Part shown: positions 7,140-63,403 of the stretch, in pieces
How positions within the stretch are numbered: position 1 is the first letter of the stretch
Layout: every line of letters begins with the position of its first letter
Source of the DNA: Pseudoxanthomonas sacheonensis
Lineage (GTDB): Bacteria > Pseudomonadota > Gammaproteobacteria > Xanthomonadales > Xanthomonadaceae
DNA: 64,000 nucleotides
Direction of reading: 5' to 3'
Assembly: GCF_010093305.1 (NCBI RefSeq)
Contig: NZ_PDWS01000019.1
Span: forward strand, 1 to 64,000
Position numbers and translations under genes: made by a program
Notes under the pieces: model-generated
What the model was told of the DNA's origin: nothing
Seen by the model: only the letters and a program-made list of their open reading frames with translations
The model's database searches: none

Positions 7140-7211
7140 GGGATTAGGGATTGGAGATTCGGGATTGGCGAAAGCGCTTTTCCCAATCCCGAATCTCCAA
7201 TCCCTAATCCC
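7140..7211. repeat. Perfect 29-bp inverted repeat inside the spc operon
   Basis: Bases 7140-7168 and 7183-7211 are exact reverse complements around a 14-base loop. The arm is built from GGGATT units (GGGATTAGGGATTGGAGATT, then CGGGATTGG). It would form a very stable RNA hairpin between rpsN and rpsH. A related but imperfect GGGAATGGGGAAT element occurs at 23129-23215, so this appears to be a dispersed repeat. Confidence 0.9.
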
Positions 7212-7265
7212 AACCTAAGATTTTCGCGAAAGCGGATATCGGTGCTACTCAAAGGGTAATACGCA

Positions 7266-24302: not shown

Positions 24303-24414
24303 TCCCCCTTTGAAAAAGGGGGATTGAGGGGGATTTGCTTTTGCGTTTGACTTTGTTGTTGCTCCAATTAAGGGCAAGAGCAAATCCCCCGTAGCCCCCT
24401 TTTCCAAAGGGGGC
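24303..24414. repeat. Inverted pair of CAAATCCCCC repeats
   Basis: The left unit (24303-24344) and right unit (24375-24414) are inverted copies with few differences. Each has an internal hairpin of CCCCCTTT and AAGGGGG and ends in the sequence CAAATCCCCC (right) or its complement. A third single copy is at 38711-38752. The pair fills the mdh-prpE gap; no gene is visible there. Confidence 0.85.
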
Positions 24415-28882: not shown

Positions 28883-28888
28883 CTTCGA

Positions 28889-29012
28889 CCCTTCTCTCTG
28901 CGGGAGAAGGTGGCGCGAAGCGACGGATGAGGGTGCGGCGGAGTCCGTGCTGTTTGGACACCACGGACTCCGCCGTACCCTCACCCCAACCCCTCTCCCG
29001 GTGGGAGAGGGG
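28889..29012. repeat. Composite CTCTCCC/GGGAGAG repeat, prpB-prpC spacer
   Basis: The element has an outer hairpin at each end (CCTTCTCTCTGCGGGAGAAGG; then CCTCTCCCGGTGGGAGAGG, each split by its loop) and an inner inverted repeat CGGCGGAGTCCGTG / CACGGACTCCGCCG. It occupies nearly the whole 160-base spacer. Bases 28971-29012 are identical, as reverse complement, to 62299-62340 inside folC. A related copy is in the acnD-prpF spacer. Confidence 0.9.
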
Positions 29013-29042
29013 CTTCAAAAAAAACCAGATCGAGGTATTGAA

Positions 29043-32866: not shown

Positions 32867-32995
32867 CCCTTCTCCCGCTTGCGGGAGAAGGTACCCGAAG
32901 AGCCTGCCCCGTACTCGATACGGGGGCGGACGAGGGTTCGGCTCATCGCGAACCGCGCCCTCACCCTTGTCCCTCTCCCGTGAACGGGAGAGGGG
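32867..32995. repeat. Composite CTCTCCC/GGGAGAG repeat, acnD-prpF spacer
   Basis: The ends are hairpins CTTCTCCCGCTTGCGGGAGAAG and, at 32972-32994, CCTCTCCCG/CGGGAGAGG around TGAA. The centre has TGCCCCGTACTCGATACGGGGGC and an inner repeat GGTTCGG/GCGAACC. Bases 32900-32922 match folC 62389-62411 (reverse complement) at 22 of 23 positions. It starts five bases after the acnD stop codon. Confidence 0.85.
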
Positions 32996-33027
32996 TTAAA
33001 ACGAATTCATTGAGCAGGTCGATTCCC

Positions 33028-49070: not shown

Positions 49071-49832
49071 GTGGTTTCCGTCGACACGACCAAGCCGGCC
49101 CCTGCACCGAGGCATGGGCTTGCACGCACTTTGTCCAAGCTGGGAGTCTGCTCGCGTACCGAGGCCGCTGCCTGGATCGCAGCCGGACGCGTGTCGGTGG
49201 ATGGGCGGACCGTCGGCAACCCCGAATACCCGGTGGTCCGTGGCGTTCATCGCATCGCCGTGGATGGCAAGGAAATCGGGCAGGGCTTGCGTCATTACCT
49301 TGCGCTCAACAAACCGCGCGGGCTGGTGACCACAGCCAAGGATGAGCGTGGCCGCGACACGGTTTACCGATGCTTCGATGGCGCTGGCCTGGGCTGGATC
49401 GCACCGGTCGGCCGTCTGGACAAGGCCAGCGAAGGGTTGCTGCTGTTCACCAACGACCCCGAGTGGGCCGCGTCCATCACCGATCCGGAAACCGGACCGG
49501 ACAAGACCTACCACGTGCAGGTCGACCGCATTCCCGATGCCGCCTTGCTCGTGCGTCTGTCGGCGGGCGTGGTGGTGGAAGGAGAACCTCTCTGTGCGAA
49601 GTCCGCGCGGATGTTGCGCCATGGGGACAAGAACGCCTGGCTGGAGATCGTGCTGGACGAAGGCCGCAACCGGCAGATCCGCCGCTTGCTGGCCGAATCC
49701 GATATCGGCGTGTTGCGTTTGATCCGCACCGCGATAGGCGGGCTGGCGCTGGGAGAGTTGCCGAAAGGACAGTGGCGCCGCCTGTCGGCGGAAGAGGCCG
49801 CCACGCTATCGCCTGCCTCGTCATTGCCGTAG
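49071..49832 (+). CDS. RsuA/RluB-family pseudouridine synthase
   Basis: The 253-residue rRNA-modifying enzyme has an N-terminal S4 domain (LSKLGVCSRTEAAAWIAAGR) and the catalytic motif GRLDKASEGLLLFTND with the Asp nucleophile, then KTYHVQV and GRNRQIRRLLAE. It isomerises one uridine in 16S or 23S rRNA; whether it is the RsuA, RluB, RluE or RluF type cannot be decided here. The start is a GTG (49071) without a clear ribosome site. The stop codon TAG lies inside the palindrome at 49824-49871. Confidence 0.85.
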   Translation: MVSVDTTKPAPAPRHGLARTLSKLGVCSRTEAAAWIAAGRVSVDGRTVGNPEYPVVRGVHRIAVDGKEIGQGLRHYLALNKPRGLVTTAKDERGRDTVYRCFDGAGLGWIAPVGRLDKASEGLLLFTNDPEWAASITDPETGPDKTYHVQVDRIPDAALLVRLSAGVVVEGEPLCAKSARMLRHGDKNAWLEIVLDEGRNRQIRRLLAESDIGVLRLIRTAIGGLALGELPKGQWRRLSAEEAATLSPASSLP

Positions 49833-49871
49833 GAGCGACGTAAGTCGCGACTTACGTCGCTCCTACGGCAA
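49824..49871. repeat. Perfect 48-nt palindrome between convergent genes
   Basis: The reading TTGCCGTAGGAGCGACGTAA (49824-49843) continues GTCG and is followed by its exact reverse complement (49848-49871), with no loop bases. It contains the GTAGGAGCGACG head seen at 26476 on both strands. The TAG at 49830-49832 is the stop of the pseudouridine synthase. It may end transcription of both that gene and kbl. Confidence 0.95.
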
Positions 49872-61320: not shown

Positions 61321-61965
61321 ATGCGCATCCTGCTTGCCCGCCACGGCGAAACGCCGTGGAACGCCGAAGGCCGCTACCAAGGCCAGATCGACATCCCGTT
61401 ATCGCCCATGGGCGAATCGCAGGCCGCTGCGCTGGGCGTGCGCCTGGCGGACGTCGACATCGCCCGCGCGGTGGCCTCGCCGCTGTCGCGCGCGCGCCGC
61501 ACTGCCGAACTGGCCCTGGGCGAAGCGCGGGTGCCGATGCTCGCCCTGGACCCCGATCTGCAGGAAATCGCGCACGGCGAATGGGAAGGCTTGCTGGCCA
61601 GCGAAATCAACGACAAAGATCCGGCACGGCTGCGTGCGTGGCGCGAAGAGCCCGAAACCGTGCTCATGCCCGGCGGAGAATCCCTGCGCCAGGTGCTGGA
61701 CCGTTCCTGGCAGGGGCTGTCGCGCGCGGCCGATGGCCTGGGCGAGGGCGACACGCTGCTGGTCGTCGCGCACGATGCGGTCAATCGCGTGATCCTGTGC
61801 CGCGTCCTCGGCCTGCCCTTGTCCAAGCTGTGGAGCTTCCGCCAGGCGCCGACTACGCTCAACCTGCTGGAAGGCCCGGACGTGGAGCATCTGGAAATCG
61901 TCCGTCTCAACGATTGCGCGCACCACACGCCGTTCTTCGGCGAAGCGGTGCATCGGGCGCTGTAA
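61321..61965 (+). CDS. Histidine phosphatase (phosphoglycerate mutase-like)
   Basis: The 214-residue protein starts with the catalytic motif LLARHGETPWNAEGRYQGQ (phosphorylated His in RHGE) and has the second catalytic His in VVAHDAVNRVIL and the Glu region HGEWEGLL. It belongs to the CobC/GpmB-like branch; the substrate is uncertain. It begins 194 bases after the peptidase, and folC starts 4 bases after its stop, so the two are probably one transcript. Confidence 0.88.
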   Translation: MRILLARHGETPWNAEGRYQGQIDIPLSPMGESQAAALGVRLADVDIARAVASPLSRARRTAELALGEARVPMLALDPDLQEIAHGEWEGLLASEINDKDPARLRAWREEPETVLMPGGESLRQVLDRSWQGLSRAADGLGEGDTLLVVAHDAVNRVILCRVLGLPLSKLWSFRQAPTTLNLLEGPDVEHLEIVRLNDCAHHTPFFGEAVHRAL

Positions 61966-61969
61966 GTCC

Positions 61970-63373
61970 ATGGCGCGCACGCTGCAGGAATGGCTCGATT
62001 ACATCGAGCAGCAACATCCGAAGTCCATCGAGCTGGGCCTGGAGCGCACACGCGAAGCGGCGCGCCGGCTGTCGCTGGGCAAACCCGCCACGCACGTCAT
62101 CACGGTTGGCGGCACCAACGGCAAGGGTTCCACGGTAGCGTTCATCGAGGCCATCGCCCGCGCGGCAGGATTGAGAGTCGGCACCTACACTTCGCCGCAT
62201 CTGCTGCGCTACAACGAACGCGTGCGCATCGAGGGACGCGAGGCCAGCGATGAAGAACTGGTCGCTGCATTCGAAGCGGTGGAGGCGGCGCGTTTGAGCC
62301 CCTCTCCCACCGGGAGAGGGGTTGGGGTGAGGGTACGGCGAAGTGGGGATTCCCCAGGTTGCAGTCCAACACCATCCCCACCCAACCTCGTATCAAGTAC
62401 GGGGCAGGCTCCTCCCCCTGAAGGGGAAGGCTCAAGCGTGCCACTCACCTATTTCGAGTTCGGAACACTGGCTGCGCTCTGGCTTTTCCAACAATCGAAT
62501 CTCGACCTGGCAGTGCTGGAAGTCGGCCTCGGCGGCCGCCTGGACGCGGTGAACATCGTCGACCCCGACGTCGCCGTCATCACCACCGTCGATATCGACC
62601 ACATCGACTGGCTGGGCAGCGACCGCGAAAGCATAGGCTTCGAGAAAGCGGGCATCGCACGCGCGTGGAAGCCGCTGGTGCTGGGCGAGATCGACTCGCC
62701 TTCCAGCGTCCTGCGCCACGCCTACGCCATCGGCGCCAACGCGGTGCGGCTGGGCAGCGACTTCATCCATGAGCCTGTGGATGAATCGCACTGGCGCTGG
62801 CGCGATGCCGGTTTCGCGATCGAGCTGCCGAATCCGAAGCTCAGCGCGCCGGTGCAGCGCGCCAACGCAGCGACCGCCATCGCGGCATTGCGCGCGCTGG
62901 ATATCGAACTGCCGACGTCCGCATTGGCGAGCGGCGTTGCTTCGGCAACGCTCCCCGGAAGATTGCAACGCTTCGACCTGCATGGCACACCGGTAATCGT
63001 GGACGTGGGCCACAACCCGCAGGCCGCGCGCGAACTGTCGGCATGGTTGCGGGCCGAACCTGTGCCTGGACGCACACTTGCGGTGTTCGCTGCCCTGGCC
63101 GACAAGGACGTGCAGGGCGTGGTTGCGGCGCTTGAGGGCGAAGTCTCGGATTGGTTGCTCGCCGGCTTGGAGAGCGTGGGCGCGCGCGGGCAATCGGCGG
63201 ATGAGCTGGCGTCGAAGGTCAGCGGCGCGGCAGCCGCAGGCTCGCGCCACGCCGACGTGCATGCCGCATTGCAGGCGGCTCTGGCGCAGGCGCATTCGGA
63301 AGATCGGATACTCGTGTTCGGTTCCTTCCACACCGTTGCCGAAGCGCTGGCGATCCTGCATTCAGGTCAATGA
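61970..63373 (+). CDS. folC: Bifunctional folylpolyglutamate/dihydrofolate synthase with repeat-derived insert
   Basis: FolC adds glutamate to folates and makes dihydrofolate. The 467-residue frame has the P-loop TVGGTNGKGSTVAFIEAIAR (about 45-64), the TYTSPHLLRYNERV segment, LEVGLGGRLDAVNIVDPDVA, DHIDWLG and DVGHNPQAAREL. It exceeds the E. coli length (422) by 45 residues. The excess is residues 109-156, from [18 protein letters not shown] to APPPEGEGSS, between EAAR and PLTYFEFG, where the family normally has one or two residues. That stretch is encoded by the dispersed repeat at 62293-62434. The gene stays open on both sides, so the insert is in frame. Confidence 0.93.
   Translation: MARTLQEWLDYIEQQHPKSIELGLERTREAARRLSLGKPATHVITVGGTNGKGSTVAFIEAIARAAGLRVGTYTSPHLLRYNERVRIEGREASDEELVAAFEAVEAARLSPSPTGRGVGVRVRRSGDSPGCSPTPSPPNLVSSTGQAPPPEGEGSSVPLTYFEFGTLAALWLFQQSNLDLAVLEVGLGGRLDAVNIVDPDVAVITTVDIDHIDWLGSDRESIGFEKAGIARAWKPLVLGEIDSPSSVLRHAYAIGANAVRLGSDFIHEPVDESHWRWRDAGFAIELPNPKLSAPVQRANAATAIAALRALDIELPTSALASGVASATLPGRLQRFDLHGTPVIVDVGHNPQAARELSAWLRAEPVPGRTLAVFAALADKDVQGVVAALEGEVSDWLLAGLESVGARGQSADELASKVSGAAAAGSRHADVHAALQAALAQAHSEDRILVFGSFHTVAEALAILHSGQ
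62293..62434. repeat. Composite CTCTCCC/GGGAGAG repeat inside folC
   Basis: Bases 62299-62340 are a 42-of-42 reverse-complement match to 28971-29012 (prpB-prpC spacer). Bases 62389-62411 match 32922-32900 (acnD-prpF spacer) at 22 of 23 positions. The terminal hairpins (CCCTCTCCC/GGGAGAGGG at 62300-62320; TCCCCCTGAAGGGGA near the other end) are kept. It encodes folC residues of about 109-156. Confidence 0.92.
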
Positions 63374-63397
63374 CGGGGAAGCCGTTTCGCGGCACCG

Positions 63398-63403
63398 TAT
63401 AAT
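63398..63403 (+). promoter_or_regulatory. -10 box before dedD
   Basis: TATAAT, a perfect -10 hexamer, stands 39 bases before the dedD start, shortly after the folC stop. No fitting -35 hexamer is visible at 16-18 bases. Confidence 0.35.

Follow-up and report, generated by a model that had tools for sequence, protein, structure and literature searches.

In-frame palindromic inserts in folC and other genes of Pseudoxanthomonas, and the DUF559 genes associated with their hairpin families

The window analysed here, a stretch of 64,000 nucleotides, comprises positions 1 to 64,000 of contig NZ_PDWS01000019.1 of Pseudoxanthomonas sacheonensis (assembly GCF_010093305.1). Towards its end, at 61970-63373 on the plus strand, lies folC, encoding a dihydrofolate/tetrahydrofolate synthase of 467 amino acids; the assignment follows from the NCBIfam models NF008101 and TIGR01499, both above cut-off, and from a best Foldseek match to E. 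coli FolC (1w78). The open reading frame (ORF) stays open throughout a palindromic element on the same strand at 62294-62435, the ends of which are 7-bp terminal inverted repeats (TTGAGCC at 62294-62300 and GGCTCAA at 62429-62435). The initial annotation had rightly placed an element of about 142 bases inside the gene, with limits one base off (62293-62434). In the protein the insert corresponds to residues 109-156, between R108 and V157. FolC relatives without it read EAAR-GD or GE-T-PLTYFE and have two residues at this site, the length that the annotation gave approximately for E. coli FolC; compared with such relatives, of 422 amino acids, the net gain is 45 residues.

From left to right on the plus strand, the element is made up of an M1 hairpin as left end module (62299-62321, CCCCTCTCCC-acc-GGGAGAGGGG), an inner arm common to many M1 copies in the genome (62322-62340, TTGGGGTGAGGGTACGGCG), a spacer, an opposite inner arm of M2 type (62372-62387, CCATCCCCACCCAACC) and an imperfect right-end hairpin of M2 type (62411-62430, CCTCCCCCTGAAGGGGAAGG). 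A nested short palindrome at 62386-62410 (cctcgtatcaagtacggggcaggct) is translated as LVSSTGQA, and a similar stretch is found inside other copies. The single strand of the element with its flanks (62285-62445) has a folding energy of -89.3 kcal/mol, with a z of -5.2 relative to shuffles. Rfam gave no match at 61900-63400 up to an E of 0.1, and a Pfam scan of FolC, with no search aimed at intein or group I intron splicing motifs, found two Mur-ligase domains only. Judged by its sequence, the insert is best described as a non-autonomous two-hairpin palindromic element with an M1 left and an M2-type right end.

In the 4.04 Mb genome to which the window belongs (G000; genomes compared carry G-numbers and loci L-numbers), the M1 core CTCACCCCAACCCCTCTCCC has 41 exact matches, and 45 at up to one mismatch compared with a single match for the reversed control. 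At up to two mismatches there are 49 matches and the control, no longer clean, rises to 43, so only the count at one mismatch or fewer is used. With 47 M1 copies listed for G000, M1 is a dispersed palindromic repeat, and the earlier claim that such a repeat is translated in frame within an essential enzyme stands. Two further copies in the window, both between ORFs as previously described and in spacers that the initial annotation assigned to the prp operon, have approximate limits of 28884-29013 (minus strand; M3-type and M1 hairpins) and 32867-32996 (no strand assigned; M3-type and M1-type hairpins and the nested palindrome). The similarities on which the initial annotation was based were reproduced, namely the identity of 62299-62340 to the reverse complement of 28971-29012 (42/42) and the agreement of 62389-62411 with 32922-32900 at 22 of 23 positions; the exact reverse-complement match to the 28.97-kb copy spans 44 of 44 bases, from 62297 to 62340.

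In an AlphaFold2 model of FolC, the predicted local distance difference test score (pLDDT) is below 50 at residues 115-153, between helices 94-109 and 161-174, and the rest of the model matches E. coli FolC. The inserted loop is probably floppy and disordered, in line with what had been suggested from the sequence. The ratio of nonsynonymous to synonymous substitution (dN/dS) was calculated for the loop in four pairs of genomes, and an excess of amino-acid change is seen in G000/G027 (dN/dS 1.54, or 1.31 with slightly different borders; p = 1e-5), G021/G008 (1.33; p = 0.001) and G028/G030 (0.61; p = 0.048). Over all four pairs the loop values range from 0.61 to 1.54, compared with 0.13-0.19 in the flanks, which implies that the loop peptide is little constrained. 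The insert appears to stay part of the FolC protein, and would then be a passenger that the enzyme tolerates, not the source of a new function. It is very improbable that the loop has been selected because it confers a new property on FolC, such as regulation, binding or stability. The frame is open in all 11 genomes of the genus with an insert, and the hairpins persist at the DNA and RNA level; however, an open frame is needed by the remaining enzyme anyway, and neither the dN/dS values nor the predicted disorder suggest selection for the peptide. Relatives also hold different modules at the site, and unrelated enzymes hold similar peptides.

A search of 61 genomes located FolC in 60, and one further genome of the genus also has it, so that all 38 same-genus genomes are covered; no internal stop occurs in FolC among the genus matches. 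An insert of at least 50 nt follows R108 in 11 of the 38, always in frame; the alignment of relatives also identified 27 genomes without one, which have two residues there, mostly GD or GE. An M1 hairpin or an M1 arm can be recognised in ten of the 11 inserts, the diverged insert of G035 having none. The left boundary is alike among the inserted genomes. By eye, the right half is of M2 type in G000, G027, G026, G028, G030 and G015, and of M3 type in G034, G021, G002 and G008. The insert of G027, a separate genome with a FolC 93% identical, is of the same length and type, so an assembly artefact, raised earlier as a possible explanation, can be set aside. In G028 and G030 (L036, L039) an extra insert is found within the M1 hairpin loop, translated as GDQRKSPRE or GDQRKSPWE, with the total remaining a multiple of three.

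On a tree built from the concatenated flanks (1407 columns), parsimony requires at least seven gains or losses at folC, while shuffled labels for presence on the same tree require 9.8 on average (minimum 6); on the FolC tree at least eight changes are needed and the inserted alleles do not group together. Some nodes in these trees are weakly supported. Among the best 120 FolC homologs listed, 117 were typed by peptide patterns, the other three being dropped for want of the left anchor, and 80 of the 117 have the loop, a proportion inflated because the query itself carried it. In this set there are at least 14 changes between presence and absence (shuffled mean 31.8) and at least 50 changes of type (shuffled mean 72.3), and among the types there are also M3-M3 pairs, short remnants and loops of other families.

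Outside the genus, where 80 named loci were kept by similarity, the corresponding folC site of Luteimonas gilva (L075) is occupied by M1 and M3 hairpins, and that of the metagenome-assembled genome RBC082 (L070) has an M3-like hairpin with the nested palindrome. In Lysobacter sp. M2-1 (L076) the loop is 24 residues longer and contains none of the hairpins looked for. A loop conserved in distant FolC proteins without similarity to the repeat would have pointed to an ordinary part of the enzyme; the long loop of L. gilva, with its two hairpins, is not of this kind. At the same folC site, Lysobacter sedimenti (L073) has a loop 8 residues longer, ALRQAQDDRD, encoded by CCTTCGACAAGCTCAGGA, which resembles a further dispersed repeat. 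In related species, then, the site is found empty, with the same insert, with other combinations of modules and with short remnants.

Similar inserts are present in other genes. A codon-usage scan covered the core sites of M1, M2 and M3 in G000, 83 in all, and flagged five inside one open coding frame; four of these were confirmed by family as lying in hrpB, putA, priA and mfd. The flagged L191 and the unflagged L171 were rejected as genes on reading their translations, and folC was missed by the scan, its upstream stretch having scored low. In addition, mreC and mrdA (PBP2), cell-shape genes lying near each other, both have C-terminal tails that include, in frame, M1-M1 elements resembling one another (L143 3288-4412 and 704-2893, on G000:C23), an identification made in G000 only, by ORF reading and family assignment. 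At least seven genes of G000 are affected (folC, hrpB, putA, priA, mfd, mreC and mrdA), and the single uptake first described in folC is one case among these.

Across the genus, inserts of at least 50 nt are found in hrpB in 11 of 38 genomes, in putA in 7 of 29, in priA in 4 of 37 and in mfd in 14 of 38. Of these inserts, 11 of 11, 4 of 7, 3 of 4 and 13 of 14 respectively contain motifs that could be assigned to the known hairpin families, by patterns that for M1 and M3 are loose and overlap; the insert counts themselves are by length. In these four genes and folC the inserts lie in frame in otherwise complete genes, relatives exist without them, and all insert lengths are multiples of three. 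The families occupying one site can be quite different. At the mfd site, G000 has one hairpin type, whereas G027, G026 and G021 have an unrelated family (CATCCCCGCGAAGGCGGGGA); G003 has, by eye, a further palindrome, and nine others are of M3-to-M1 type, intact or shortened. The priA site of G025 holds a third family (CCCCCTTT..AAAGGGGG), and by eye the putA site of G026 holds a different palindrome, of GAACGAGGAACGAG type. At the hrpB site only M1 and M3 types were seen. The occupation of the same residue by unrelated repeats argues for permissive loops and frequent insertion, and not for one inherited event.

These observations bear on the possibility that folC received a single ancestral insertion, subsequently lost by precise deletion or redistributed by allele exchange between species, with gene conversion by other copies changing its modules. 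This scenario accounts for the alike left boundary and for the exchange of modules, as conversion between copies would produce it, and shuffled labels need more changes on average (9.8) than the seven of the observed distribution. Conversion of similar copies would not, however, give unrelated families at the same mfd and priA sites, the empty sites are short and clean, with two residues, and the FolC tree, with its eight changes, does not group the inserted alleles. A single insertion is accordingly possible but rather unlikely. The comparison of sequences instead suggests that the folC codon is a recurrently used site at which hairpin modules have been exchanged. The spread of a repeat into the gene, as originally proposed, is borne out; its uptake in one event is not.

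The hairpins are also associated with genes encoding DUF559 proteins, a candidate mobility function that the initial annotation did not connect with the repeat. One such gene lies between two M1 hairpins at L024, and there are 85 DUF559 matches in 34 of the 38 genomes. After dropping three weak matches (below 40 bits), 81 of the remaining 82 have 150 bp on each side. Using a perfect stem of at least 7 within this distance as the criterion, a hairpin was found upstream in 64 of the 81, downstream in 58, on both sides in 47 and on either side in 75, compared with 69 of 308 control segments taken 200-500 bp away. A smaller set of 30 loci with 140-bp windows gave 19 upstream, 18 downstream and 11 on both sides (control 17/174). 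M1 hairpins lie on both sides of 22 of the 81 loci, M2 brackets DUF559 at L358 and L363, M3 at L428, L441, L445, L447 and L449, and hairpins of the CCCCCTTT family at L440, L443 and L446. The genome with the priA insert of this last family, G025, also has the matching DUF559 (L440). The two hairpins share an 8-mer at 40 of the 47 two-sided loci, where 1000 shuffles gave a mean of 17.8 and a maximum of 28.

The number of repeats follows the presence of these genes. M1 matches number 4-45 in the 20 genomes with an M1-flanked DUF559 and 0-9 in the 18 others (p = 1.5 × 10-7), and independent contrasts between M1 copy number and M1-flanked DUF559 give r = 0.80 (p = 2 × 10-9). The association extends to plasmids: in the 12 of 43 matching records that were examined, a hairpin lies within 150 bp of DUF559 in all 12 and on both sides in five (control 8/48). 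The hosts are Azospirillum, Sinorhizobium, Shinella, Sphingomonas, Sphingobium, Novosphingobium, Methylobacterium, Deinococcus and Picosynechococcus. Some insertion sequences use repetitive extragenic palindromic (REP) sequences as landing sites, and DUF559 genes might use hairpins in the same way without mobilising them. Association by itself fits either direction, and at 28 of the 81 loci a single side carries a hairpin. Landing sites would nevertheless explain less readily why the ends match at 40 of the 47 two-sided loci, why M1 copy number follows M1-flanked DUF559, or why DUF559 loci can be separated by hairpin family, several families being represented, and we regard this explanation as unlikely.

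The predicted fold of DUF559 (mean pLDDT 79) is closest to 3hrl, which is also found by sequence search, and then to the homing endonuclease I-Bth0305I (3r3p); some mitoribosome chains and PvuRTs1I follow, with Vsr at ranks 10 and 13 (E ~0.1). We take DUF559 to belong to the PD-(D/E)XK group. PADLOC defence annotation gave no match for it. Among the 120 DUF559 homologs listed (P0121-P0240), dominated by close relatives of the query, 110 fit patterns for a C-terminal tail resembling the translated downstream hairpin, for example PHPNPSPDGRGA.

A whole DUF559 with M3 hairpins is itself found in frame within a Mur-ligase-like gene in G019, G026, G027 and G035. The protein of G019 has 766 amino acids, with DUF559 at 135-240, and the G000 ortholog resembles cyanophycin synthetase, below the cut-off for that family. 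Seventeen loci were compared (from 16 genus genomes and one other family), 15 of them with both flanks. In these 15, four have DUF559, G000 has 17 residues encoding one M3 hairpin, and the other ten have 7-25 residues; the short stretch of G034 may also be a remnant. No intron or intein was recognised at the in-frame DUF559 inserts, with no search aimed at splicing motifs. Their dN/dS is 0.06-0.16 in five of six pairs, one pair being saturated and synonymous sites in general being near saturation, so the in-frame DUF559, in contrast to the folC loop, is apparently under strong constraint. At L428 (G010:C12:395050-395364) DUF559 with hairpins also lies in a long open frame; a by-eye reading of this frame as a DNA methyltransferase was not supported, as NCBIfam names only DUF559 on the 466-aa stretch.

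From these associations we infer that DUF559 moves the hairpin repeats. It seems fairly probable that a hairpin element has spread in these genomes and been taken up in frame by folC at a tolerant loop, with DUF559 as the mover. The nuclease would cut or nick DNA and the hairpin-ended element would be copied to new places. Within genes, only insertions into a tolerant loop and of a length divisible by three would be kept. Short forms and forms with mixed ends, such as the folC copy, might then arise as copies undergo internal deletion or recombine with one another, and cross-mobilisation could be another route to copies of this mixed type. The role envisaged for DUF559 is modelled on RAYTs (REP-associated tyrosine transposases) and REPs; RAYT transposases are thought to copy REPs.

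A number of observations count against this interpretation. Movement itself has not been observed. No target-site duplication can be defined by comparing empty and filled folC sites, because the insert replaces the two codons of the empty site, and the folC copy has mixed ends (M1 and M2-type), whereas at most of the two-sided DUF559 loci the ends match. Clustering of the insert on the tree is weak, since shuffled labels need as few as six changes, and the excess of amino-acid change in the fourth loop comparison (G034/G002, dN/dS 0.74) is not significant (p = 0.37). By the measure used, six of the 81 DUF559 loci lack a hairpin, the 81 are not independent because many look orthologous by their neighbours, and M1 counts include the hairpins flanking DUF559 itself. 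Several mitoribosome chains outrank Vsr in the fold search. DUF559 could have inserted into pre-existing hairpins instead of moving them. M1 may no longer move in G000, as the M1-flanked DUF559 of this genome (C15:64682-64984; L391, also in L024) has an in-frame TAG, the counterpart in G027 being open. Elsewhere another enzyme may do the moving, because in Legionella DUF559 has been reported from repeated segments alongside a transposase (PMC12308824).

Furthermore, matches to Y1_Tnp, the RAYT-type transposase domain, are present in 35 of the 38 genomes and number eight in G000, one of them below cut-off. The folC insert might thus be an ordinary REP or REPIN-like element moved by RAYT, with DUF559 merely sitting among REPs, and the paired inverted hairpins do resemble REP dimers. 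Yet no M1 or M3 was found within about 1 kb on each side of the eight Y1_Tnp loci of G000; an M2 pair lies about 730 bp from one of them, L349, and another, L353, has a different hairpin family nearby. G012, G016 and G033 have Y1_Tnp but no M1 match, and a GTAG/CTAC tag lies within 8 nt of only 1 of the 47 M1 hairpins of G000 and a CGTC/GACG tag of none. We therefore consider movement by RAYT improbable. On the favoured reading, with DUF559 as mover, a wider proposal can be made, for and against which the evidence seems about evenly balanced. DUF559 nucleases would represent an unnamed class of mobile element, present in Proteobacteria, Deinococcus and Cyanobacteria, in which a Vsr-like endonuclease gene with family-specific hairpin ends gives rise to non-autonomous palindromic repeats in large families. 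Whole or reduced, such elements would enter essential proteins, FolC among them, in frame at permissive loops, leading to repeated gain and loss of disordered segments by these enzymes.

Other repeats and neighbouring genes were recorded in passing. The window contains hairpins of CCCCCTTT...AAAGGGGG type, like the family in priA of G025, at 24303-24414 (paired) and ~38720, another palindrome at 49824-49871, the hairpin stem of which (TTGCCGTAGGAGCGACGTAAGTCGC...) pairs perfectly over 23 bp, and a long inverted repeat built of GGGATTGGAGATT-type units at ~7140-7230. The 32.9-kb copy was considered as a deletion derivative of another species' DUF559 element beside a similar downstream gene; this was rejected because, by eye, the upstream neighbour differs. 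The neighbours of the C15 DUF559 gene read like hmgA and hpd by eye, and the same neighbours are found in relatives with an open gene.

With these inserts, the repeated entry of repeat DNA into essential proteins at one codon can be followed across several species, and empty, full and remnant states can be compared. If the link with DUF559 holds, a large group of GC-rich palindromic repeats gains a candidate enzyme, a possible function emerges for a domain that is widespread but uncharacterised, and the spread of the repeats becomes directly testable. In-frame palindromes are already known, from Rickettsia and as intragenic REPs. Two points appear to be new: that unrelated hairpin families share a single codon in several housekeeping enzymes, which was not met in the open-licence literature searched, and that DUF559 (COG2852) is tied to palindromic repeats, likewise not met there, including the available parts of PMC12907096, PMC8861277, PMC12308824 and PMC7251935.

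Several known systems resemble the one described here. REP dimers wholly inside ORFs have been reported, many in DNA repair genes, and recB of X. campestris and X. oryzae has different REPs at about the same site; GTAG repeats were linked to tyrosine transposases and CGTC repeats to no transposase, and DUF559 is not named in that work (PMC3733652). Such REPs have their tags beside the hairpin, unlike nearly all M1 copies of G000. Like REPINs and RAYTs, the present repeats combine paired inverted hairpins, dispersed in tens of copies, with a nuclease gene on the chromosome that occupies conserved places between hairpins of the same kind. The enzyme, however, is DUF559, which is Vsr-like, rather than a Y1 tyrosine transposase, and at the eight Y1_Tnp loci of G000 the transposase is not flanked by M1 or M3. 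The predicted DUF559 fold recalls Vsr and I-Bth0305I, as does the presence, within a conserved gene, of an insertion that encodes an endonuclease, with the difference that the DUF559 insert has no recognised intron or intein and appears to stay in the protein. The Rickettsia palindromic elements (RPEs) are described as palindromic repeats of ~150 bp, of several families, many of them in frame in unrelated genes (PMC10969869). Likened by description, RPEs and the folC element are both protein-coding palindromes belonging to several families. The folC element differs in being found in a gammaproteobacterium, in having two exchangeable hairpin modules, and in that different families occupy one codon among species; in addition, and unlike in Rickettsia, a candidate nuclease gene shares its ends with the hairpins studied here.

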